The translations under genes and the position numbers were made by a program. From a virus, in the IMG/VR virus record IMGVR_UViG_3300031886_000791, positions 1 to 27,800 of that record: a stretch of 27,800 nt of DNA. One strand, 5' to 3'. The notes under the pieces were generated by a model that was given only the letters and a program-made list of their open reading frames with translations, had not been told where the DNA came from and searched no databases. Below are positions 288-19,007 of this stretch, in pieces. The first letter of the stretch is position 1; each line of letters starts with the position of its first letter.

Positions 288-2051
288 TTGTTTAATCTAT
301 ACAGTATTACAGTCAAGAATTTTATGAGTGTGGGTAACAGCACACAGGCAATAGATTTTAATAGAAATGATTTAACACTTGTACTTGGAGAGAACTTAGA
401 TCTGGGTGGTGATGACACCGGTGCTAGAAATGGTACTGGTAAAACTACAATTATTAATGCTTTAAGTTATGCTCTATATGGACAAGCACTTACTAAAATT
501 AGAGTTGACAATTTAATTAATAAAACAAACGGCAAGAATATGCTTGTTTGTTTAGAGTTTGAAAAGAACGATAAAAGATATAAAATTGAACGTGGGCGTA
601 GACCTAATTTACTAAAATTTTATATTGACGAACAAGAGCAAGAAGCAGACGATAACGCTCAAGGTGATAGCAGAGAAACACAACATGATATAAATCGCTT
701 ACTTGAAATGAGCCACGAAATGTTTAAACACATTGTGGCACTTAACACTTACACAGAACCTTTCTTAAGTTTAAAAAATAATGATCAACGTGCTATTATT
801 GAGCAACTATTGGGTATTACTTTATTAAGTGAAAAGTCTGAAAAACTTAAAGAACAGATAAGGCAGAATAGAGATAGTGCTAAAGAAGAAGAATTTAGAA
901 TCCAAGGCGTTGAACAAGCAAACGCTCATATAAAAGAACAAATAGAAAACCTTAAACGTAGAAGCAAGTTATGGGAAGATAGTAAAGACGAACAAGTACA
1001 AAAATTAGAAAAGGCGATTGCTGACTTAGGTGATGTAGACATTGATGCTGAATTAAAACAGCATGAAAAACTAAATGACTTTAGAGATTTAAGAAGAAAA
1101 CAAAAAGATTTAGAAACAGAGATAGCAAGTAATGAACGAGTAGTTGAAAGACTTACAACAGAAGCAAACAAAATTGCTGAGAGTTTAGAACACGTTAAAA
1201 ATCATACTTGTGATAGTTGTGGACAAGATATTAAACACTTAAAAGATTATAAAGAAAAACTGTTAGGTCTTGAAAAGCAAACAGAAGATATAGCACAGAA
1301 ATTAGTAGATGCCGGTCTAAAAGTAATAGACAACAAAGAATTAAGAGTTGACGTAGGAGAGAAACCAGAAACATTTTATGAAAGTGCCACAGAAGCACAT
1401 AATCATAAAAGTACTTTAACAACTCTTGAGGACCAATTAACAAATAAGCAGGCAGAAGAAAACACTTATAATGAACAAATAACTGAAATGGAGACGTCGG
1501 GCATTCAGGAGATAGTGTTTGACACGTTAAATCAATTAAATAACGTAAAGGAACACCAAGAGTTCCTATATAAATTATTAACAAGTAAAGATAGTTTTGT
1601 TCGTAAACGTATTATTGAACAGAATTTAGCATTCTTAAATAAGCGATTGACATACTATCTTGATAGAATTGGATTACCACATAAAGTGCTATTCCAAAAT
1701 GATTTATCAATTGAGATTACAGAGTTAGGTCGTGATCTCGACTTTGATAATTTATCTAGGGGTGAAAGGAATAGATTGATTTTAGCATTAAGTTGGTCTT
1801 TCCGCGATGTCTGGGAAAATTTATACCAACCTATAAACTTGTTGTTTATCGACGAGTTAATTGACTCAGGCATGGACACCTCTGGTGTAGAAAGTTCATT
1901 GGCAATCTTGAAAAAGATATCCAGAGAAAGAAAGAAAAGCATATGGCTTATTTCACATCGGGATGAGTTGGCTGGTAGAGTAAATAATGTGCTTACCGTT
2001 ACTAAAGAAAACGGGTTTACTAGTTATAACAATGACGTTAACGTTAACTAA
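288..2051 (+). CDS. 46: gp46-like recombination endonuclease subunit (SbcC/Rad50-type ATPase)
   Basis: This 587-residue protein has the full plan of an SMC-like SbcC/Rad50 ATPase. Walker A is GARNGTGKTT near residues 45-54, a long charged coiled coil follows, a zinc-hook CxxC (C308, C311) sits in its middle, a second coiled coil follows, then the ABC signature LSRGER (489-494) and Walker B LLFIDE ending at D522-E523. T4 gp46 is about 560 residues, so the length is normal. It partners the gp47 nuclease, resects DNA ends and feeds recombination-dependent replication in the cytoplasm. The start is a TTG at 288, one base after the gp47 stop, which points to translational coupling; no better start is visible, because the motif VKNFMS right after it is the usual N-terminus of this family. 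Confidence 0.93.
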   Translation: MFNLYSITVKNFMSVGNSTQAIDFNRNDLTLVLGENLDLGGDDTGARNGTGKTTIINALSYALYGQALTKIRVDNLINKTNGKNMLVCLEFEKNDKRYKIERGRRPNLLKFYIDEQEQEADDNAQGDSRETQHDINRLLEMSHEMFKHIVALNTYTEPFLSLKNNDQRAIIEQLLGITLLSEKSEKLKEQIRQNRDSAKEEEFRIQGVEQANAHIKEQIENLKRRSKLWEDSKDEQVQKLEKAIADLGDVDIDAELKQHEKLNDFRDLRRKQKDLETEIASNERVVERLTTEANKIAESLEHVKNHTCDSCGQDIKHLKDYKEKLLGLEKQTEDIAQKLVDAGLKVIDNKELRVDVGEKPETFYESATEAHNHKSTLTTLEDQLTNKQAEENTYNEQITEMETSGIQEIVFDTLNQLNNVKEHQEFLYKLLTSKDSFVRKRIIEQNLAFLNKRLTYYLDRIGLPHKVLFQNDLSIEITELGRDLDFDNLSRGERNRLILALSWSFRDVWENLYQPINLLFIDELIDSGMDTSGVESSLAILKKISRERKKSIWLISHRDELAGRVNNVLTVTKENGFTSYNNDVNVN

Positions 2052-2065
2052 TAGGAGAATTTCGA

Positions 2066-3052
2066 ATGAAACGTTTATTAACAATTATTAGTATGTTGCT
2101 CATCCTATGTACAAGCATGGTAAGAGCAGATGATATTAAAATTGCCGAGTTAAATTGGCAGTCTGGATCGATGATAGCCAACATTGATGCTTATATATTA
2201 GAACATGGTTATGGACACAATATTGAAATTGTTCCAGGAGGCATCGATGCTACTATTCAATCAATGATGACAACAGGCTCACCTAATATAGTTGGAGAGA
2301 TGTGGTTGACATCGCTCGGTGATAGTGCCCACGAGGCTCTTAACAACGGGTCTCTTGAGTTAGTAGGAGATGGTGTTATAGGTGGTGCTGGCGAAGGCTG
2401 GTTCATTCCAAATTATACGGCAGAAGAATATGGTCTTAATACAATTGAAGATGTATTAGCAAGGCCAGATTTATTTCCACATCCAGAAGATTCTTCTAAG
2501 GGTGGCATAGTAATCTGTCCAGAAGGTTGGAGTTGCAAAGGAAGTAATGAAAACCTATTTAAAGCATTTGATATGGAAGCCAAAGGCTGGAAAGTAATAG
2601 ATCCAGGTTCAGGTACTGGCTTGAATGCTCATTGGGAAGGTGCTGTAACTAAAGGAAAAAGTGCCTTTGGTTATTATTGGACACCTACAGTATTTGTAGG
2701 TCGTTTAAATTTAGTAGGACCTCTTCCTTCTGAAGTAGGATTTGCTGGTGACGATAACTGGACTAACTGTATTGCTTTGAGAGTTGATGAATGTGTTAAC
2801 CCACAAGTATCATCGTGGCCTGTACCTCAGACAGGAACTATCGTTACACCGGAAATTTGTTCTTGTGTAAAGGTTTATTTGGCTTCAAGATCATTTAGCG
2901 GTAGTGTTGTTACCCAAATGTTAGTGTGGGCAGATGATAACCAAGCAACAGCGGAAGAATCTGCTATTCATTTTTTAACCACGTATCCTGAAGTTTGGGA
3001 AACATGGGTAACACCGGAAGTCGCTGGCAAAATTAGTGCTACATTAAATTAA
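2066..3052 (+). CDS. proX: ProX/OpuAC-type periplasmic glycine betaine/DMSP-binding protein
   Basis: This 328-residue protein begins with a Sec signal peptide: MKR, a hydrophobic core, then a likely signal peptidase site after VRA near residue 21. The mature part resembles substrate-binding proteins of the glycine betaine/proline betaine ABC importers. It has conserved tryptophans at W31, W80, W112 and W205 (in GYYWTP), the kind of residues that form the aromatic cage for trimethylammonium or dimethylsulfonium groups. Several cysteine pairs (for example around 151-157) could form disulfides in the periplasm. A clear ribosome site (AGGAG) precedes the ATG. It starts 14 bases after gp46 and is followed at once by the permease, so it is read in the same transcript. 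Substrate choice between glycine betaine, proline betaine and DMSP cannot be fixed from sequence; the DddP-like gene downstream favours DMSP. It is host-derived in type and unusual in a phage. Confidence 0.85.
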   Translation: MKRLLTIISMLLILCTSMVRADDIKIAELNWQSGSMIANIDAYILEHGYGHNIEIVPGGIDATIQSMMTTGSPNIVGEMWLTSLGDSAHEALNNGSLELVGDGVIGGAGEGWFIPNYTAEEYGLNTIEDVLARPDLFPHPEDSSKGGIVICPEGWSCKGSNENLFKAFDMEAKGWKVIDPGSGTGLNAHWEGAVTKGKSAFGYYWTPTVFVGRLNLVGPLPSEVGFAGDDNWTNCIALRVDECVNPQVSSWPVPQTGTIVTPEICSCVKVYLASRSFSGSVVTQMLVWADDNQATAEESAIHFLTTYPEVWETWVTPEVAGKISATLN

Positions 3053-3064
3053 GGGTCATGAACG

Positions 3065-3934
3065 GTGAGTTTCCCATCTTTAGATAGAGAAACAATAACT
3101 GTCCTTAAAAAATCTATTGATAGCACTTTCAGAGAATTTGCTAGTAATTGGGGAGAATGGTTTACAGAACTGCTCTTCCCGGTTCAATGGACACTAATTC
3201 ACTTTGAAAAACTATTACTTGCTACACCTTGGTATGTATTTTTAGGTGTAATAAGTTTATTACTTTGGAAGTTAACACTAAACTGGAAACTAATACTAGG
3301 TTTCTTAATTAGTTTTACCTTAATTGGTCTAGTAGGTATGTGGGACGACACAATGCGAACACTAGCCATTGTTGTTGTCTCAACACTTATTTGTATAGTA
3401 GTTGGTATTCCAATCGGAATATTAATGGCAAAAAGCAATATAGCTCATAGAATTATCTTACCCATACTAGATTTAATGCAAACCATTCCAAGTTTTGTAT
3501 ATCTAATTCCTGTTATAATGTTATTTGGACTTGGCAAAGTTCCAGGCTTAATTGCTATATGTTTCTTTGCTATACCTCCAGTGATTAGATTTACAAACAT
3601 TGGCATTCGAGAAATTAATAAAGATTTAACAGAAACAGCACACGCCTTAGGGTTAAGGCCCATACATATTTTAAGACTTATTGAATTGCCATTAGCAAGG
3701 AATGTTATATTTGGAGGGATAAACCAAACAGTTATGATGGCATTAGCAATGGTTGTTATTGCTAGTATGATAGGTGTACGAGGACTAGGCTCCCAAGTAA
3801 TGAATTCAATAGGCAATGGATACTTAGGTTTAGGGGTAATTAGTGGATTGTCTATTGTTGCTTTAGCAATTATAATGGACAGAACTATACAAGCACATAA
3901 TAAACGCCATGATAAATGGAGGGAAAAGAAATAG
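3065..3934 (+). CDS. proW: ProW-type ABC transporter permease for betaine/DMSP
   Basis: This 289-residue inner-membrane protein has about six to seven hydrophobic segments, from around residue 55 to 271. The cytoplasmic EAA loop that contacts the ATPase is clear at about 187-210 (ETAHALG, then IELPLA), and the family signatures QTIPSFVYLIP and GVRGLG are present. It is the membrane channel for the binding protein encoded just upstream. The start is a GTG at 3065 with AAGGG nine bases before it; the nearby ATG at 3058 is in another frame. The stop is followed directly by the ATG of the next gene. No ATPase subunit (ProV) is encoded in the cassette, so the permease would need a host ATPase. The EAA loop and length look intact, which argues against decay. 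Confidence 0.87.
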   Translation: MSFPSLDRETITVLKKSIDSTFREFASNWGEWFTELLFPVQWTLIHFEKLLLATPWYVFLGVISLLLWKLTLNWKLILGFLISFTLIGLVGMWDDTMRTLAIVVVSTLICIVVGIPIGILMAKSNIAHRIILPILDLMQTIPSFVYLIPVIMLFGLGKVPGLIAICFFAIPPVIRFTNIGIREINKDLTETAHALGLRPIHILRLIELPLARNVIFGGINQTVMMALAMVVIASMIGVRGLGSQVMNSIGNGYLGLGVISGLSIVALAIIMDRTIQAHNKRHDKWREKK

Positions 3935-5356
3935 ATGTTAAAACAATACCAACCACCATTAAGTGATGATCAGATATTTCTAAGTTCATCAACTGAACAG
4001 ATTACTTGGGGCGAACTACACGCAAACCTTGATGCTAAAATCGAAAGATTAAAAGAACACAGCATAGGCCCACACGTTGTTTTTATAATAGCAGAAGATA
4101 ACGTTACAATAGATGACTTTTTATGGATCCTTGCTAGTATTAAAAATGGCGGATCAGCCTCTCAGGCAGATGCTACACAATCTAAAACAGAAATAGATAA
4201 CTTAATAAAATGTTGTAAGGCAAGTTGTATAATACGTTCAAACGAAATACAAATGTTAAATGATCCAAAAGAAACAGGTCCTACAATTTTACACCCTAAT
4301 GAAATATACAGAAATATGACAAGTGGAACCACAGCCAAAGAGTTCTTTGAAATGTATCCATCCTTTTGGGATTTTAAAGAGCATGACGAGGCTATTGGGG
4401 TAGATGGACAAACAATAGTAGGATGTACGACTTGGTCTTTAAATGGTCATTTACTTGCTGTAGCACCTGAATTTACAAAAGATAAAAGGCCATATGTTTT
4501 AGGTACACCAAGACTTACAGCAACGTATAATCCGTATAACTTATTAAGGATGTATCAAGTAGGTGGAGGTTTTCATATATTAAATAGTGGTGACAACGTA
4601 CCAGAAGAAATAAAAAGAGTAAAACCTAATATTTGTATATCATATCCTAATGCTGTTAAAAGAGTAGTTGACTCCTGCCCAGAGGATTTTAATTGGACTG
4701 GTATTGACTACTGGGAGTTTGCTGGAGGGCATACACCAGAAACTATTGTTAGAAATATAGAAAAGAAATTTAAGTTCAAAGCATTATACAATGTAATGGC
4801 AAGTACCGAAGCCGATTGTCACACAAGAGCGGTGTACAAACCCGGAGATCCAATAAAAAACTTTTATGGATTTAGAGAAACAATTCATAATGGTGAATTA
4901 AAACTTGATGAAAAAGGTGTACTTTGGTACAAATATGGAACATTAGATTGGATGACAGATGGCGATAAACTTCGAGATGAAGATGGTATATGGTATTATG
5001 AAGGCAGAGTATTTGATGATGTTATTTTTATGAAAAGTGGTGTTAAAGTTTACACAGGACTAATAGAAGCAGTAGCACTTGAAGTTTCTGGTGTTAAAAA
5101 TGTTGCCAGTTGTGAGAAAGATGAACTTCATTACCTATTATATACTGGAACTGCTAATGCTAATGACGTTGCTAATCATTTTATTAATACCATTCAAGAA
5201 TATAAACAGCCTCATTATATATTTCATGTAACTGAACCACTGTTTTTTAGTGGACATATTAAAGTTCAAAAACGTAAACTACCGGACATTGTTAATAATG
5301 CATCAGTTGATCAAATTATAAGTAAAGTAATTGTAAAGCACCATTCAAAAGTATGA
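3935..5356 (+). CDS. ANL-superfamily adenylating enzyme (acyl-CoA synthetase-like)
   Basis: This 473-residue protein shows the ordered core motifs of AMP-forming ligases. There is a P-loop TSGTTAKE at 129-136 with K135, an A5-like MASTEAD at 288-294, a TDGDKL motif at 341-346 and EGRVFDD at 356-362. The C-terminal lid has several lysines (SGHIKVQKRKL, 439-449), one of which could be the catalytic A10 lysine. The usual P-loop ending PKG is replaced by KEF, and the protein is somewhat shorter than typical acyl-CoA synthetases of 500-600 residues. The enzyme would activate a carboxylate with ATP and usually pass it to CoA. The substrate cannot be read from sequence. Its place between a betaine/DMSP importer and a DddP-like lyase suggests a small acid such as acrylate or 3-hydroxypropionate, or a carnitine-like betaine, as inference only. 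It begins right at the ProW stop; its own stop overlaps the next start (ATGA). Confidence 0.72.
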   Translation: MLKQYQPPLSDDQIFLSSSTEQITWGELHANLDAKIERLKEHSIGPHVVFIIAEDNVTIDDFLWILASIKNGGSASQADATQSKTEIDNLIKCCKASCIIRSNEIQMLNDPKETGPTILHPNEIYRNMTSGTTAKEFFEMYPSFWDFKEHDEAIGVDGQTIVGCTTWSLNGHLLAVAPEFTKDKRPYVLGTPRLTATYNPYNLLRMYQVGGGFHILNSGDNVPEEIKRVKPNICISYPNAVKRVVDSCPEDFNWTGIDYWEFAGGHTPETIVRNIEKKFKFKALYNVMASTEADCHTRAVYKPGDPIKNFYGFRETIHNGELKLDEKGVLWYKYGTLDWMTDGDKLRDEDGIWYYEGRVFDDVIFMKSGVKVYTGLIEAVALEVSGVKNVASCEKDELHYLLYTGTANANDVANHFINTIQEYKQPHYIFHVTEPLFFSGHIKVQKRKLPDIVNNASVDQIISKVIVKHHSKV

Positions 5357-6573
5357 ACAACTCACCTGACAGTTTAGTATTAAATGACAACTGGAGTGAC
5401 TTACAGCAGTTCAGAGAACTGCCAAATATTGATCATAACCGACTTAACAAATACCGAATTAAAAGACTTCGTGCGGAAATAAAAAGAGCCAACGTTGGTG
5501 CTTTAGTAATAGTTAATCCTGTTAGTTTACGATATGCGGTAAATTACAACACTTACCCATTGTTTCAAGCACGAGTACCTTCCACATATCTCATTATAAG
5601 TGAAGAAGGCCCAACTATAATCCATAGAGCATATACAGATTATACCACACATATTGACCGATCTTGTCCAGGGCGTCTTCTTAACTTCTTTGATGCTGGA
5701 GACACTCTTAATGATAACGCTCAACTTTTCGCAAAAGATCTTGTTGAATATCTTGAGGAAATTGGTACTGATAATCGACGTGTAGCAATAGAGTCTGTTA
5801 ATCCAAGTGTCACTAGTGCTTGTTTACAAAAAGGGTTAGAAGTATTAGATGGTATGGCACTTACTGAAAAGGCTCGCATAATTAAATCACAAGATGAAAT
5901 CGAGTGTATTCGTTGGTCAATTGCTGTAGCAGAACTTGGTATAGCAAAAATGGAAGAAGCTCTTAAGCCGGGTGTTACTGAACTACAACTTTGGGGATTA
6001 TTAAATTACACTAACTTATCTAACCAAGGTGGTTGGCATGAAGGACAAATGCTGGCTTCCGGTCCACGTATAAACCCTTGGCTTCAAGAAGCATCACAGC
6101 GACCTATAGAGTCAGGTGACCTAGTTGGTTTTGATACTGACATGGTAGGACCAATGGGTTACTTCTGTGATATATCTCGTACATTCCATTGTGGACCAAA
6201 AGAACCAACCAAACGACAAAAAGAAATTTACCAGTTAGCATATGATGAGGTTCAATATAATCTTCAATTAATAAAACCAGGTAAAACAATTAGAGATATA
6301 CAAGAGGCTTCATATACAATTCCGACTGAATTTCAGGAACAGGCATACCCTTGTATTATACATGGAGTTGGAATGTGTGATGAATATCCGCGTATCAATC
6401 CAAAACATTTAGGTGAGAATCCATATAACGGAACAATTGAAGAAGGCATGGTTCTTGCTGTAGAAAGTTATATGGGAGCCGTAGGTGAACGAGATGGTGT
6501 TAAACTTGAGGAACAAATTCTTGTAACTAACGATGGCTACGAAATGCTGTCCACGTACCCTATGGAAATATAA
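5353..6573 (+). CDS. dddP: DddP-like DMSP lyase (M24 metallopeptidase fold)
   Basis: This 406-residue protein has an N-terminal creatinase-like domain (about 30-170) and a C-terminal M24 'pita-bread' domain. The metal ligands visible are D261, D263, D273, H337, E371 and E386, with Y332 and D343 near the histidine. In DddP of Ruegeria the corresponding residues, as I recall them from the structural work, are D295, D297, D307, H371, E406, E421, Y366 and the catalytic D377. The spacings match: 2, 10, 64, -5 and +6 relative to the histidine, and 15 between the two glutamates; one gap differs by a single residue (34 rather than 35). The D-x-D arrangement differs from ordinary aminopeptidase P. Segments such as LASGPRINPW, FDTDM and HGVGMCDE also fit DddP. 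The family cleaves DMSP to DMS and acrylate in the cytoplasm. The ATG overlaps the preceding stop. Other M24 enzymes (ectoine hydrolase, creatinase) are less likely but not excluded. Confidence 0.75.
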   Translation: MNNSPDSLVLNDNWSDLQQFRELPNIDHNRLNKYRIKRLRAEIKRANVGALVIVNPVSLRYAVNYNTYPLFQARVPSTYLIISEEGPTIIHRAYTDYTTHIDRSCPGRLLNFFDAGDTLNDNAQLFAKDLVEYLEEIGTDNRRVAIESVNPSVTSACLQKGLEVLDGMALTEKARIIKSQDEIECIRWSIAVAELGIAKMEEALKPGVTELQLWGLLNYTNLSNQGGWHEGQMLASGPRINPWLQEASQRPIESGDLVGFDTDMVGPMGYFCDISRTFHCGPKEPTKRQKEIYQLAYDEVQYNLQLIKPGKTIRDIQEASYTIPTEFQEQAYPCIIHGVGMCDEYPRINPKHLGENPYNGTIEEGMVLAVESYMGAVGERDGVKLEEQILVTNDGYEMLSTYPMEI

Positions 6574-6576
6574 ATA
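6569..6576 (+). promoter_or_regulatory. TATAAATA box directly before the TauD-like gene
   Basis: An exact late-promoter octamer ends only 6 bases before the ATG at 6583, overlapping the end of the DddP-like gene. If it works as a promoter, the transcript would start at about the ATG and be leaderless. It may also be chance in an AT-rich spacer. Confidence 0.35.
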
Positions 6577-6582
6577 TTATAT

Positions 6583-7398
6583 ATGGCATTACAAGTAGAA
6601 AAGCATACTGATTTAGAAGTAAAAAACGAAGTCAATAAAATATTAAAACACGGCTACACAATTCATCACGAACAAAATTTAACACAATCTCAATTAATTG
6701 ACTATTGTAGACGTATTGGAGATACTAATGATGACAAAATGTGGGGTGCGAGTTTTAATCCTAAAGATAACCCTGATATAGCAAGAGTAATGCCTGGTGG
6801 TATGTTTGGTGAAACAGAATTACACTGGCATAGCAATGGCACCGTACATCACTTGAGTGAGTTTAAAGAAATACTAATTGCTTTATATTGTAAAGACGAA
6901 TGTGTTGATACGGTGTTTAGTTTATTAAACAATCGAGATGCTTTTTTAGAATTACCCGAAAGCGAAAAAGATTATTGGCGTTCCATTGAAATACAATTAA
7001 ACAACTTCGGGCATGGTATATACGGGTCAGAGGCAGAAGCATTAGATGATCCTAGTTTAGATAATTATAAACCGGTTAGGCACGAAGGTGATGAACGTAT
7101 GTCAGCAGTAAACACACATCCAGTTGACGGCCAAGAGTTTTTATATTGGCAACCACCATTAATAGAAAAAGCGTGGCAAGACGGTAAACCTACAGATGTA
7201 GATGTAGTACGGGAAAAATATAAAAAAACATTAGATAGATCTATATACCAAAATCATTTTGTATTTAAAAAAGGCGATTTTCTTATAATGGATCAGTTAT
7301 ATACGTTACATCGACGCTCACCAATTGTGAATAAGAGTAGAGAATTGTGGCGTGTGGCATTTGATTATACAGAAATAGTTCAGAAATCGCGGCTGTAG
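6583..7398 (+). CDS. TauD/TfdA-like Fe(II)/2-oxoglutarate oxygenase with HxN motif
   Basis: This 271-residue protein aligns by eye with the TauD/TfdA/gamma-butyrobetaine hydroxylase group. The proximal metal motif is W-H83-S-N85-G where the family normally has HxD; the distal histidine is H243 in YTLHRR, and R253/R257 about 10-14 residues later fit the 2-oxoglutarate-binding arginine. The Asp-to-Asn change replaces a carboxylate iron ligand and could mean altered chemistry (compare Fe/2OG halogenases, which lack this carboxylate) or loss of activity. Substrate is unknown; betaines and sulfonates are usual for relatives, which fits the importer upstream. It follows the DddP-like gene by 9 bases, with a TATAAATA box ending 6 bases before the ATG and no good ribosome site. 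It ends the metabolic cassette. Confidence 0.7.
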   Translation: MALQVEKHTDLEVKNEVNKILKHGYTIHHEQNLTQSQLIDYCRRIGDTNDDKMWGASFNPKDNPDIARVMPGGMFGETELHWHSNGTVHHLSEFKEILIALYCKDECVDTVFSLLNNRDAFLELPESEKDYWRSIEIQLNNFGHGIYGSEAEALDDPSLDNYKPVRHEGDERMSAVNTHPVDGQEFLYWQPPLIEKAWQDGKPTDVDVVREKYKKTLDRSIYQNHFVFKKGDFLIMDQLYTLHRRSPIVNKSRELWRVAFDYTEIVQKSRL

Positions 7399-7673: not shown

Positions 7674-8186
7674 ATGCCAAGCCCACAAAAAGCAAAAGGT
7701 TCAGCCTGGGAACGAGATGTCGCGAAATTCTTGTCAGGGTTATATGGTGAATCTTTTATAAGAGCACCAGGATCTGGTGCTTATGTGGGCGGGTCTAATA
7801 AAGCAAGAAAAGAAATATTACACGAAGGGCAAGTAAGAGCCTTTAAAGGAGACATTGTACCTGGACAAAGTTTTCCTAAATTTAATGCAGAATGTAAGTT
7901 TTATAAACAATTCTCATTTCACAGATTGTTACAACCTGAACCACTTCCTCAATTAGAAGAATGGATATCACAACTTATGGATGTAGCAGATCCAGGCGAC
8001 TTCAATATATTAATAATGAAATTCAATCAAATAGGCAAATTTATCGCTATAGAATCAAAGCACAAATCAAAATCAAAAAACTACATAGACTATTGGTCAA
8101 ACACCACAGGCTCTAACTGGCGCATATCAAATTTTGAGGAATTTTTCACAAGAAATTCAGATCTGGTTAAAACATTATGTGCCTAG
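7674..8186 (+). CDS. PDDEXK-type endonuclease-like protein
   Basis: This 170-residue protein has an arrangement typical of small PDDEXK nucleases: an N-terminal helix with E13 (AWERD), then D60 in KGDIVPG, then E73-x-K75 in AECKF, followed by a helix. The N-terminal MPSPQKAKGSAWER and the glycine-rich segment GSGAYVGGSNKARK are conserved-looking. Such proteins cut DNA with two metal ions; possible jobs are junction resolution, host DNA breakdown or repair. I cannot choose between these. It starts 34 bases after the Hc1-like gene and is the last + strand gene before the non-coding RNA-like region. Its stop at 8184-8186 is directly followed by an 11-base sequence that recurs at 8367-8377. Confidence 0.65.
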   Translation: MPSPQKAKGSAWERDVAKFLSGLYGESFIRAPGSGAYVGGSNKARKEILHEGQVRAFKGDIVPGQSFPKFNAECKFYKQFSFHRLLQPEPLPQLEEWISQLMDVADPGDFNILIMKFNQIGKFIAIESKHKSKSKNYIDYWSNTTGSNWRISNFEEFFTRNSDLVKTLCA

Positions 8187-10040: not shown

Positions 10041-10084
10041 GGATTTTTCTCCGCTAAATACAATATAATAGTAGTTAGTCATAT

Positions 10085-10092
10085 TATTTATA
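10085..10092 (-). promoter_or_regulatory. T4-type late promoter box for the gp26 operon
   Basis: The bases TATTTATA are the exact complement of TATAAATA, the T4-type late promoter recognised by the gp55/gp33 system. Its distance of 45 bases from the gp26-like start suits a short leader. On the other strand TATATAAT at 10097-10104 could serve the tape-measure gene, so this 78-base gap may be a two-way late promoter. Confidence 0.6.
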
Positions 10093-10118
10093 TGAGTATA
10101 TAATGGTGAAATGAAAAC

Positions 10119-12806
10119 ATGGCAATAAGAATTAATACAGATAATAATGAAATCGAAATCAGTGATGTAGCAACAGAAGACACCCTTCACGACTTATTAA
10201 TAGCAGTTCAAAAACTTTCTGGGGAGAAAGCAACTGGAGAGGCCAAGTCTCAAGCCAAAAAACAAACTGAATATATCAAGAAAAACGTCGACGCGACAAA
10301 AAATCTTAGCCTTTCATTAAAAGATTGGTCAGGAAACTTTGATGATACCATGGAAGATCTTGATAAATCTATGACGTCTAGAGGAAAAGCAATAGCCAGT
10401 GCTTTAGGAAATATTGTAAAAAATACAGGTAATGTAATAAGTGATCTTATTAGAGGTCCTGCTAGTTTTGATACATTAGGTAGGGCTATTCAGTCAGGAG
10501 CCACAGCATTAGGAGATGGCTTAGGAGGTATGGCAGACAGTTTCCAAGTTCTTGGAACAAAATTGCCTATGGTTGGATCAGGTATAAAAATGCTTGGAGC
10601 CGCCGCAGGAGCGGCCGCTATGGCAGTTGCCGCCTACGCCCAAAATTTAATGGACGGTTTTGTAGCATTAAGTCAAAGTGGAGCAAATTACAATTCTGAT
10701 ATAATTAGGACATCGGCACAAATACATGGCTTAGGCTTAACAATGAATGCCTTTACACAGATTGTTCAAACAAATGCCCAAGGGTTAGCACAATTTGGTG
10801 GTTCAGTTTCACTTGGTGCTAAAAGATTTGTAGAATTAGCAAGTGTAATGAGAAGCGATTACGGCGGAAGTCTTTATGCTTTAGGTTTAACTTATGACGA
10901 ACAAGCCGAACAATTAGCCAAGTATACACAAACCCAGTCAAGAAATACTGCTTTTCAAAATATGAGTTATCAGCAACAGAGTGTACTGTTTAAAGATTAT
11001 ATTAGTGATTTAAACACATTAGTAGGACTAACAGGTAAAAGTAGGCAACAACTAGCACAAGAACTGGCTCAAAATGATTTAAGAGCAGATGCTAATATTA
11101 GATTACAAGGTGCTACAGTTGAAGCTCAAAAGGCATTACAATTAGTTTTTAGTACAGCAGGACAAGATTCAGCAATTTCACAGATATTATTAGCAGGTGT
11201 GGCTGGTAAAGATCTAGCACTTGAGATGGCCGCTGGTAACCAGACTATTAAGAGTTTTGTAGCAGGTAATAGTGAAGCGGCACAAAAATTACGAGATTTA
11301 GGTGATGCTGTAGCAACTGGTACAATAGATCAGGATGAATTCAAAGAAGGAATAAGAGCCATATTACCAAGTATCGCGGCAAGTGGTAAAGAATTTGAAG
11401 GTTTATATGGTATAAGTGATGTTGCTACTGTAATGACACAAGCGGCTAGTGATGTTCAAAAATTACAAGTACAATTTCAAAATTTAGGTAAAGCAGTTGG
11501 AGATAGTGACAGCAAATCAGCCGACGGCGTTGGTGGACAAATCCTACTAATGGCGGCAACATTAACAGACTTCCAGAACCAGATTCAATCAGGCATCGAA
11601 GGAGGCATCTCCGACTGGTCAGCATCATTATTTCCAGAAGACGAGAGACCTATAGGCGAGATAATACAAAGTAGGATGGACTCGTTATCCGTTTGGGGTG
11701 ATAAACTTCAAACTCAACTTGACAAGATTTTAACATCTTTTACCAATTTCTTCACTCAATTTGAAATAGTTGCTAAAGCACCATGGGATTGGTTAATGGG
11801 TGGTACAAGTACTAAAGAATTACGAAAACAAGCAAATCAAATTGTTGAAGGAAGAGGTGGATATGACTCTTACGGGATGGAAGGTGTCATGAGTGGAGCA
11901 GAAATACAGACAGCGATCTCAAAAATGAGTGGCCCAGAATTACACGCCGCTATGAATGCATTGAAATTTGATAGTTCAACAGCAGATGGTAAGGTAAGCG
12001 AAAAAGGTATTATCCATTATATACAAAGCCTTCGATCACTATCAGCGATGGCTCAAGCAAATGAACTCTCTGCTTCGTCTACATCTCTTGCCCCTGGTGT
12101 AACAGATCATGCTTTTGGTAGTTTTGAAGAGTTAGTTAAATCTTTAAATACAGGTTTTAAAGGTAAACAAACAATAGATCTTGGTGGTGGTCACAGTACT
12201 ATAATTGATAGGATTCCTCAGGTTAAGTCTCAATTAGCAAAAGCGTACAATGCCGGACAAGGTGATATTGCTGATGCGGCCTTTGAACAATTTAAGCAAT
12301 TTCTCCATTCAACTATTCCAGGCTATAAAATGGGTATGACTTGGGAAAGTTATATGCAAGATAATAACATTGATGGTTATTCTGTAACAGCCGCACAATC
12401 AGTAATTAGAGATAAGTTACACGCCATTCAAAGATGGAATACTGGTAAGTTCCCTGGCCAGGGAACAGATGGTGGAGCACTGGTTAGTGCTAAAAAATTA
12501 CAATACGGAGGTTATACCAGCCCAATTATTCCACAAATTATTAATGAAGGTGGTATGGGAGAGTGGTTTACACCAAATACAGCAGGTACAATGACACCTA
12601 ATTCAGAATTAGCAACAGCAAGTGGTACTATGGGTGTAATTAGTAATATTCAAGAATCTAATAGACTTTTAGGTCAGGTAATTAAATTAGCCAGCCAAGG
12701 TAATCAACTCTCTGAAGCATTTGGTAGTACATCTATTAATATTTCTAAAGATATATCCAAAACTAATACTAAAATGTTAAGGGCCTATTCAGACATTAAT
12801 ACTTAA
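10119..12806 (+). CDS. large tail protein, tape-measure-like
   Basis: This 895-residue protein is largely helical and rich in Ala, Gln, Ser and Gly, with heptad-like stretches in the first 130 residues and one strongly hydrophobic segment at about 157-175 (GAAAGAAAMAVAAYAQ). It has no enzymatic motif. Size, hydrophobic segment and helical make-up fit a tape-measure or tail-length protein such as T4 gp29, and its position beside a gp26-like baseplate gene and just before the portal gene agrees. Residue identity with gp29 cannot be judged by eye, so the name is by analogy. The start is preceded by a poor ribosome site (GTGAAATGAAAAC). A stretch at about 11510-11670 uses more C-ending codons than the rest of the gene, which could mark a recombined segment. 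Confidence 0.6.
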   Translation: MAIRINTDNNEIEISDVATEDTLHDLLIAVQKLSGEKATGEAKSQAKKQTEYIKKNVDATKNLSLSLKDWSGNFDDTMEDLDKSMTSRGKAIASALGNIVKNTGNVISDLIRGPASFDTLGRAIQSGATALGDGLGGMADSFQVLGTKLPMVGSGIKMLGAAAGAAAMAVAAYAQNLMDGFVALSQSGANYNSDIIRTSAQIHGLGLTMNAFTQIVQTNAQGLAQFGGSVSLGAKRFVELASVMRSDYGGSLYALGLTYDEQAEQLAKYTQTQSRNTAFQNMSYQQQSVLFKDYISDLNTLVGLTGKSRQQLAQELAQNDLRADANIRLQGATVEAQKALQLVFSTAGQDSAISQILLAGVAGKDLALEMAAGNQTIKSFVAGNSEAAQKLRDLGDAVATGTIDQDEFKEGIRAILPSIAASGKEFEGLYGISDVATVMTQAASDVQKLQVQFQNLGKAVGDSDSKSADGVGGQILLMAATLTDFQNQIQSGIEGGISDWSASLFPEDERPIGEIIQSRMDSLSVWGDKLQTQLDKILTSFTNFFTQFEIVAKAPWDWLMGGTSTKELRKQANQIVEGRGGYDSYGMEGVMSGAEIQTAISKMSGPELHAAMNALKFDSSTADGKVSEKGIIHYIQSLRSLSAMAQANELSASSTSLAPGVTDHAFGSFEELVKSLNTGFKGKQTIDLGGGHSTIIDRIPQVKSQLAKAYNAGQGDIADAAFEQFKQFLHSTIPGYKMGMTWESYMQDNNIDGYSVTAAQSVIRDKLHAIQRWNTGKFPGQGTDGGALVSAKKLQYGGYTSPIIPQIINEGGMGEWFTPNTAGTMTPNSELATASGTMGVISNIQESNRLLGQVIKLASQGNQLSEAFGSTSINISKDISKTNTKMLRAYSDINT

Positions 12807-17834: not shown

Positions 17835-19007
17835 ATGTCAGATACATTAATTGAAAGCCGTTGGGATGACACTAAATCGGCTCTTATGGAAGGTTTAGAA
17901 GGTAATTCTAAAACTACTATGAGTGTTGTTTTAGAAAACACCCGTAACTACTTAAAAGAGGCGGCAACTGCTGGCGCGACATCTGCCGGTAACGTTGCTA
18001 CTCTAAACCGTGTGATACTACCAGTGATCAGACGTGTTATGCCTACAGTTATTGCTAACGAAATCGTTGGCGTACAACCTATGCAAGGTCCTGTAGGTCA
18101 AATTCATACTCTAAGAGTGAGATATGCTGATACAACCACTGGCGGTGCTACAAACATCGCGGCTGGTGATGAAGCATTATCTCCGTTCAAAATTGCTGAA
18201 TCTTACTCAGGTAACGACGGTAACCCAGGAGCAGGTGCTTCTACGGCTACTTTAGAAGGTGCACCAGGTAAGAGATTGAACATTCAAATTTTAAAACAGC
18301 CGGTAGAAGCGAAAACTCGTAAACTATCAGCTCGTTGGACATTTGAATCAGCTCAAGATGCCCAATCAATGCATGGCATTGACGTTGAAGCAGAAATTAT
18401 GGCCGCATTGGCTCAAGAAATAACTGCTGAGATCGACCAAGAAGTTCTTACTTCTTTAAGATCACTAGCGGCTACTGAAGAAACCTATAACCAGGCTTCT
18501 GTAAGTGGTACTGCTACATACGTTGGTGACGAACACGCGGCATTGGCTGTTTTGATCAATAGAGTTGCTAATAAGATCGCACAAAGAACAAGACGTGGTG
18601 CTGGTAACTGGGCTGTGGTTTCTCCACAAGCACTAACAGTACTTCAATCTGCTTCTACTTCAGCGTTCGCAAGAACAACTGAAGGTACATTCGAAGCACC
18701 AACAAACAACAAGTTTGTAGGTACATTGAATGGCGCTATGAAAATTTACGTTGACACTTATGCGGCTGATGATTCAGCAGTATTAGTTGGATACAAAGGT
18801 TCAAGCGAAGCGGACGCGGCGGCGTTCTATTGCCCATACGTACCTCTAATGTCTTCAGGTGTTGTTTTAGACCCTGATACACTAGAACCAGTCGTTGGCT
18901 TTATGACAAGATATGGATATGTTGAGTTAACTAACACAGCATCTTCACTTGGTAATGCTGGTGACTACTTGGGCGAAATTGCTATGTCAAACATCTCGTT
19001 TGCTTAA
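17835..19007 (+). CDS. 23: major capsid protein gp23
   Basis: This 390-residue protein is a gp23-type HK97-fold major capsid protein. The N-terminal part (to about 50) with VVLENTRNYLKEA is the region removed by gp21 in T4. Typical segments follow: NRVILPVIRRVMPTVIANEIVGVQPM, then GPVGQIHTLRVRY, then EAKTRKLSARWTFESAQD and the C-terminal block with FYCPYVPLMSSGVVLDP. It is shorter than T4 gp23 (521 residues), consistent with lack of the inserted surface domain. A strong ribosome site (AAGGGAGA) precedes the ATG, and a strong terminator follows the stop, as expected for the most abundant virion protein. Codon use is richer in GC than in its neighbours, which suits high expression. Confidence 0.96.
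   Translation: MSDTLIESRWDDTKSALMEGLEGNSKTTMSVVLENTRNYLKEAATAGATSAGNVATLNRVILPVIRRVMPTVIANEIVGVQPMQGPVGQIHTLRVRYADTTTGGATNIAAGDEALSPFKIAESYSGNDGNPGAGASTATLEGAPGKRLNIQILKQPVEAKTRKLSARWTFESAQDAQSMHGIDVEAEIMAALAQEITAEIDQEVLTSLRSLAATEETYNQASVSGTATYVGDEHAALAVLINRVANKIAQRTRRGAGNWAVVSPQALTVLQSASTSAFARTTEGTFEAPTNNKFVGTLNGAMKIYVDTYAADDSAVLVGYKGSSEADAAAFYCPYVPLMSSGVVLDPDTLEPVVGFMTRYGYVELTNTASSLGNAGDYLGEIAMSNISFA

Follow-up and report, generated by a model that had tools for sequence, protein, structure and literature searches.

We analysed a window of 27,800 nucleotides of viral DNA (positions 1 to 27,800 of IMG/VR record IMGVR_UViG_3300031886_000791), in which five adjoining genes at positions 2066-7398 encode relatives of the solute-binding protein ProX, the permease ProW, an acyl/aryl-adenylate-forming (ANL) ligase, the M24-family enzyme DddP and the oxygenase TauD. 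On balance, these genes probably form an operon of auxiliary metabolic genes in a large marine phage of the T4 superfamily, in which a two-part transporter would import an onium osmolyte and phage enzymes would act on it. The evidence is best read as import of some onium osmolyte; dimethylsulfoniopropionate (DMSP) as the substrate is unproven. In the proposed mechanism, the periplasmic phage ProX would catch a small onium carboxylate (DMSP or a betaine) and hand it to phage ProW, which would be docked on a ProV-type ATPase supplied by the host. Within the cell, a carboxylate would probably be activated by the ANL ligase, the TauD-family protein would modify that carboxylate or a product, and the DddP-type M24 enzyme, apparently acquired from a marine alphaproteobacterium, would probably take the onium group off the solute or cleave a related bond in it. 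We infer the transport function, the use of host ProV, the order of the reactions and the substrate alike.

A five-gene metabolic cassette on a phage backbone

Open reading frame (ORF) calling over positions 2066-7398 gave five intact genes on the plus strand, in the order ProX, ProW, ANL ligase, M24 and TauD-like, with intergenic distances of 12, 0, -4 and 9 bases. All five products passed the curated Pfam cut-offs, which bears out the gene row, spacing and families given in a preliminary description of the window. The first gene (2066..3052, 328 amino acids) encodes a ProX/DmpX-like periplasmic solute-binding protein (PF04069, OpuAC, 4.6e-33) and is preceded by a GGAG ribosome-binding site. 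It is followed by a ProW/DmpW-like membrane permease (3065..3934, 289 amino acids; PF00528, BPD_transp_1, 1.8e-25) and by a divergent, phage-typical ANL ligase (3935..5356, 473 amino acids; PF00501, AMP-binding, 3e-8). The start of the M24 metalloenzyme gene (5353..6573, 406 amino acids; PF00557, Peptidase_M24, 1.6e-31, with PF01321, Creatinase_N) overlaps the ligase stop codon by four bases (ATGA), and the last gene (6583..7398, 271 amino acids; PF02668, 2.6e-12) encodes a homologue of TauD/TfdA-family oxygenases in which HxN replaces HxD.

The cassette lies, as previously described, between gp46 and phage nuclease and baseplate genes. Upstream is a gp46-like SbcC/recombination nuclease subunit (288..2051, plus strand; phrog_77, 1.7e-95); downstream are a PDDEXK/RusA-like nuclease (7674..8186, plus strand; PF24608, 1.1e-23), a protein matching a T4 baseplate protein, and then portal and major head proteins. 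The gp46-like protein has 88-89% amino acid identity to its counterparts in the viral loci L095 and L096, where it also stands immediately 5′ of ProX, and the nuclease has 91% identity in L095/L096 and L187, where it is likewise 3′ of the cassette. The major capsid protein (17835..19007, plus strand; phrog_138, 6.8e-100), which serves as the marker for placing the phage, is ~65-70% identical to those of PA5oct, Munch, GAP32 and like phages with genomes of 285-470 kb, and the 27.8-kb window is therefore probably a piece of a large T4-superfamily phage.

A second viral contig, G004 (103 kb; loci L096 and L181), is colinear with the window on both flanks and through ProX, ProW, ANL and TauD. Nucleotide identity between the two is 78% both from gp46 to ProW and in TauD, 77% in the ligase, 80% across the nuclease region, 71% around the baseplate genes and 83-86% from the portal to the tail genes, and the G004 major capsid protein is 97% identical to that of the window. 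The cassette thus consists of metabolic genes on a genuine phage backbone, with portal, capsid and baseplate genes and a colinear second contig. The order in G004 is gp46-ProX-ProW-TauD-ANL-nitroreductase-methyltransferase-nuclease. In the window, TauD lies 3′ of the ligase with M24 inserted between them, and the nitroreductase and methyltransferase are absent; since the nearest relative has TauD before ANL and no M24, the window carries a rearranged variant.

That the locus is host DNA or an assembly chimera, the latter named in the preliminary description as fatal to its claim, is extremely unlikely. M24 has no other viral homologue in the collection, which could be taken as a sign of chimerism. 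However, the independent G004 contig has the locus between the same neighbouring genes and aligns with the window at 71-86% nucleotide identity, flanks and four shared genes included, and a chimera was discarded on this colinearity. Moreover, M24 is tied into the ligase stop codon, and its GC content at third codon positions (0.233) equals that of the phage. With the contigs of its closest bacterial relatives at 58-69% GC, M24 is thus not a recent arrival. Pairwise ratios of nonsynonymous to synonymous substitution (dN/dS) against L096 and L103 were 0.10-0.32 for ProX, ProW, ANL and TauD, with 0.12 for gp46; these four cassette genes are under purifying selection. For M24, dS was saturated in the pairwise comparison.

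The window also holds five TATAAATA octamers resembling T4 late promoters, at 6569, 12819, 21863 and 26690 on the plus strand and at 10092 on the minus strand. Four lie ~45-80 bases 5′ of phage ORFs and the fifth only 14 bases 5′ of TauD; their total is about that expected from base composition.

The putative importer and the M24 enzyme

The ProX-like protein scores 115.3 bits against PF04069 (cut-off 21.2) and has an apparent N-terminal signal peptide. Its best PDB match is 7yle, RnDmpX of Roseovarius (1e-39 with the single sequence, 3e-56 with a profile). Weaker profile matches were obtained to 4xz6 (TmoX; 5e-6) and to E. coli ProX (4e-4). The RnDmpX pocket comprises Trp35, Thr64, Trp84, Glu113, Trp152, Ala153, Tyr200 and Trp202, with Tyr200 required for DMSP binding (PMC10030565). 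The window protein has Trp, Ile, Trp, Glu, Trp, Ser, Tyr and Trp at these positions, so that six of the eight are kept (W31, W80, E110, W155, Y203 and W205, i.e. the four-Trp cage and the equivalents of Tyr200 and Glu113) and two are substituted (Thr64 by Ile60, Ala153 by Ser156). The equivalent of Tyr200, which is Phe in 4xz6, is conserved in all 20 bacterial ProX relatives examined, and therefore the ProX Tyr does not single out DMSP. In a phylogenetic tree whose sample names no verified SAR11 DmpX, the phage proteins form a clade (support 100/100) sister to an alphaproteobacterial X-W-V branch and outside the RnDmpX branch; all members of the bacterial sister branch (5/5) are found in X-W-V operons. 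The permease was recognised by the NCBIfam ProW/ChoW models at ~1e-73, under their cut-offs.

No ProV was found in the window, and no cognate ATPase in any ProX locus examined. When 14 related phage records, themselves fragments, were searched with PF00005, only SufC scored above the cut-off (in two sister contigs), the remaining matches being sub-threshold. The ATP-binding cassette (ABC) ATPase of contigs G003 and G004 was a candidate for the missing ProV but was rejected, because by eye it looks like SufC and is accompanied by SufE- and SufD-like genes. In these sister loci, L153 (G004:C1:93206-96667) and L152, a glyoxalase-like gene adjoins the three Suf-like genes, which constitute a phage-borne iron-sulfur assembly set. 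ProX-ProW without a detected ATPase is not a self-sufficient importer. Given the lack of a detected ATPase and the X-W-V operons of the bacterial sister ProX, we infer that phage ProW probably uses host ProV. The osmolyte import and catabolism module proposed in the preliminary description thus survives as a genuine phage-borne, import-like module plus enzymes, but one without a detected ATPase, with the ProX Thr replaced by Ile and with ProX outside the RnDmpX branch.

The failure to find the ATPase in any examined locus would also fit a ProX-ProW pair that acts as a block, tying up host ProV or the solute so as to stop osmolyte uptake or exclude a competing phage. We regard this as very unlikely, because the aromatic solute cage of ProX is retained and because ProX, superfluous to a pure block, is kept together with ProW under purifying selection.

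The M24 protein matches the NCBIfam equivalog for DddP (NF043017) with 278.5 bits (E 9e-83), a score that does not reach the cut-off of 600, and is ~31% identical to DddP. It is 54-72% identical to uncharacterised bacterial proteins (71% to those of uncultured alphaproteobacteria). DddP is its nearest solved relative both by sequence and by fold: four DddP entries are the best PDB matches of its AlphaFold model (predicted local distance difference test (pLDDT) score 89; Z 42.6-42.7), with Z 42.7 over 392 residues to DddP 4rzy and 34.8 to the best prolidase. DddP is characterised by six metal ligands, including Asp297, and by Tyr366 and Asp377, which are proposed to be catalytic (PMC4108388, PMC5395565). 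All eight are retained (D261, D263, D273, H337, E371 and E386; Y332 and D343), whereas Trp95, Phe278 and Trp379 of DddP are replaced by Phe, Leu and Tyr. The identical eight-residue set occurs in M24 relatives from Mesorhizobium, Pseudomonas and Rhizobium, and therefore marks the chemistry of a wider group and not DMSP as the substrate. In a midpoint-rooted tree with one verified DddP, the window protein falls in a 76-member clade (100/100) of marine bacterial proteins apart from Ruegeria DddP, nested in an alphaproteobacterial branch (support 100/99). The earlier call of a DddP-like enzyme is therefore right as to closest sequence, fold and active-site residues, but the score (278 against 600 bits) and the separate clade place the protein beside DddP and not within it.

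The gene neighbourhoods of bacterial M24 homologues were also inspected. Mesorhizobium homologues neighbour ProXWV and MttB-family genes, whilst Rieske oxygenases were found in 12 of ~78 loci, and flavin adenine dinucleotide (FAD) oxidoreductases also occur. Those of them that were examined by model resemble glycine betaine monooxygenase and the GcvT/trimethylamine N-oxide- or DMSP-demethylase (sarcosine-oxidase-like) families. None of the homologues in the loci examined stands beside acrylate genes. These associations, being partial and variable, suggest onium metabolism and fix no substrate.

Although DmpX and DddP are the nearest solved relatives of ProX and M24, the latter with its catalytic residues complete, it is unlikely that the cassette is specific for DMSP, with ProX-ProW importing it, an M24 lyase yielding dimethyl sulfide (DMS) and acrylate, and the ANL ligase handling the acrylate. 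M24 lies outside the DddP branch and under the DddP cut-off, with the three aromatic positions altered; some of its bacterial homologues of 55-71% identity are near betaine-demethylation genes and none was seen near acrylate genes; the ANL protein is unlike known alphaproteobacterial coenzyme A (CoA) ligases; and related phages carry ProX-ProW-ANL without any M24.

The ligase, the TauD-like protein and recurrence in other viruses

The ANL ligase scores 33.3 bits against PF00501 (cut-off 29.9). Its core motifs TSGTT, ASTE, TDGD and GRxxDD and a C-terminal Lys443 are invariant in eight phage homologues. No close PDB relative was found, NCBIfam matches were weak and the AlphaFold model has a pLDDT of 42; a search of 337 alphaproteobacterial genomes, made without a positive control, gave no match at 1e-8. 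On the weak NCBIfam matches and the absence of an alphaproteobacterial match, DmdB, PrpE and acrylate-CoA ligase were rejected as identities for this protein.

The TauD-like protein (PF02668, 47.7 bits against a cut-off of 27) has HSN at residues 83-85 (window 6829-6837) and lacks the canonical HxD, whilst the distal His243 is retained. Profile alignment to solved oxygenases places its Asn at the metal-binding Asp. This is a family trait: among 93 collected phage sequences (including L008 and L095-L151), which are redundant, 74 of the 83 that could be read have HxN and nine have HxD. In a bacterial TauD control (n=30), 25 had HxD/E, none had HxN and five were not read by the pattern. Several phages carry HxN and HxD copies in tandem. 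The DMSP catabolism set envisaged in the preliminary description is weakened on both counts, as the ligase has no sign of DmdB or acrylate-CoA ligase and the TauD-like protein is without the canonical metal-binding Asp. TauD homologues also occur in a recurrent, biosynthetic-like cluster near tail fibres in Pelagibacter phage Mosig (L008, 48493-65218) and in L111-L151. Genes of this cluster encode a methylase, an N-acetyltransferase, an Asp/Arg hydroxylase, an aminotransferase, a desaturase-like protein, a flavin mononucleotide reductase and a peroxiredoxin.

IMG/VR was scanned with TauD, ligase and ProX queries. ProX was present in 21 viral loci, with ProW immediately 3′ in 20 of them and the remaining locus cut off at that point. 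An ANL gene was found in 12/21, either 5′ or 3′ of ProX-ProW, usually with TauD, nitroreductase and methyltransferase alongside. Many of the contigs are near-duplicates, and the loci are therefore not independent events; sorted by gene order and by how closely their ProX resembles that of the window (52-72% identity), they make up about a dozen groups. The recurrence of gene pairs and triples in other viral contigs is more than chance. The gene order that the preliminary description had proposed to seek elsewhere is in this way recovered for ProX-ProW and ANL, but M24 is found in no other virus.

According to the preliminary description, the full set is not known from a described phage. This holds for the records searched, although a large part of it recurs in undescribed marine phages. 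ProX had no match among 50,697 phage records, and a literature search without preprints and most subscription papers returned no description of the cassette or of a viral dddP. M24 and ProW matches in INPHARED were rejected as phage precedents, since they come from unannotated Listeria, Staphylococcus and Enterococcus 'phage' records that resemble host DNA. Among these, OR846865, OR848517, OR848511 and similar records hold bacterial ABC permease and M24 genes, probably as host DNA in phage assemblies.

Several of the loci have further genes close by. A TctA permease gene with, behind it, a gene for a TctC-like binding protein lies near the cassette in L103 (9198-11807), L109 (16270-18801), L106 (2304-4839) and L186 (10091-12666), and also in L003 (14397-16950); TctB was not recognised beside them, and this second transporter is seemingly short of a part. 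In viral contig L185, CsgF and CsgG (curli secretion) genes lie immediately 3′ of ProX-ProW (10065-11434). Radical SAM genes are found within or near the ANL blocks of L103 (5867-6874) and L003 (4148-6480), and a second, short ANL-like gene (L106, 6523-7269) precedes some cassettes. Lastly, the window ProW (3065-3934) is 90% identical to that of L103 (1734-2603), against 67% for the adjacent ligase and 53% for TauD, which suggests phage-to-phage gene exchange inside the cassette.

A number of observations weigh against a single osmolyte operon. The Thr that contacts the DMSP carboxylate is Ile in four of the five phage ProX proteins compared, and an ATPase may lie elsewhere in the phage genome, the contigs being fragments. 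The ligase and the TauD-like protein are without a characterised close relative. M24 was not found in other viruses by IMG/VR scans with a single sequence and two alignments, the sole viral relative being a distant M24 (27%) in L094; nor was it found in the 14 related phage records or among the ORFs of the 21 ProX loci. Moreover, ProX-ProW occurs without ANL or TauD in L187, L194-L196 and L200 (in L187 it stands alone between gp46 and the nuclease), and ANL-TauD occurs without ProX-ProW in L097 and L003, the latter having TctA-TctC instead. As each pair is found apart, the two are possibly separate modules.

It is possible, if rather doubtful, that they are also unrelated in function, with ProX-ProW replacing the host osmolyte importer in the course of infection (for osmotic balance and nutrients), TauD-ANL-nitroreductase-methyltransferase making or modifying some other small molecule or macromolecule, and M24 a chance guest. 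Besides the separate occurrences, the presence of TauD homologues in unrelated clusters of a biosynthetic type in Mosig and other pelagiphages argues for this. Two pelagiphages reduce host proVWX transcripts (PMC12753301), a drop that a phage copy of ProX-ProW could offset. Yet the adjacency of the modules is maintained across different orders, the ANL block being 5′ of ProX-ProW in L186, L190 and L202 and 3′ of it in L095, L103, L106 and L109, and M24 is joined to the middle of the block by its four-base overlap. We continue to favour the operon for onium osmolyte import and conversion.

Implications and comparison with known systems

In the surface ocean, glycine betaine and DMSP rank with the abundant small organic solutes, and it is from DMSP that climate-active DMS originates. 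What is new here is a variant of an auxiliary metabolic cassette with a DddP sister-clade enzyme that was found in no other virus searched. Viruses may steer the use of betaine- or DMSP-like compounds by infected bacteria, and phage control of bacterial import and cleavage would, if true, tie viral infection to the fluxes of sulfur, nitrogen and carbon. The cassette is also a case, open to experiment, in which two of the three components of an ABC importer come from a virus. It further defines phage protein families without a known role, those of the ANL ligase and of the TauD-like proteins with HxN. A more far-reaching scenario, which we consider speculative and rather improbable, is that an operon widespread in large marine phages hijacks the host osmolyte-transport ATPase by means of a phage binding protein and permease, and that the imported onium compound enters a phage-encoded pathway made up of a new ligase family and 2-oxoglutarate-oxygenase-like proteins with a 2-His-1-Asn site, to which a new class of M24 lyase that eliminates the onium group would be added in the present phage. 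Were such a lyase class real, the virus would have a direct means of degrading DMSP or betaines.

The closest known transport system is DmpXWV of Ruegeria pomeroyi (RnDmpX, 7YLE; PMC10030565), with which the cassette shares the PF04069 family, the four-Trp cage, the Tyr200 and Glu113 equivalents and a permease directly downstream. In contrast, phage ProX has Ile for Thr64 and Ser for Ala153, forms its own clade and is accompanied by no DmpV ATPase. DddP (RlDddP 4RZY, RdDddP 4B28; PMC4108388) resembles the phage M24 enzyme in its two-domain M24/creatinase fold, all six metal ligands, Tyr366 and Asp377, but the phage protein is only ~31% identical, belongs to a separate clade under the NCBIfam cut-off and has Trp95, Phe278 and Trp379 replaced. 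Closer are the uncharacterised M24 proteins of alpha- and gammaproteobacteria, Acidimicrobiales and Mesorhizobium (L014, L018, L028 and L009, for instance), at 55-71% identity and with the phage gene nested among the alphaproteobacterial ones; these, however, reside in GC-rich genomes, some by betaine-demethylation genes, whereas the phage copy has an AT-rich sequence and belongs to a phage operon. The TauD-like protein of Pelagibacter phage Mosig EXVC030M (MT647606) is 36% identical, has the HxN motif and adjoins a methylase, although the Mosig cluster lies near tail fibres and is without ProX, ProW, ANL and M24. Lastly, whilst the cassette differs from known phage auxiliary metabolic genes in that it encodes the solute-capturing and membrane components of an ABC importer but not the motor, it has in common with them host-like metabolic genes, a phage backbone and purifying selection.

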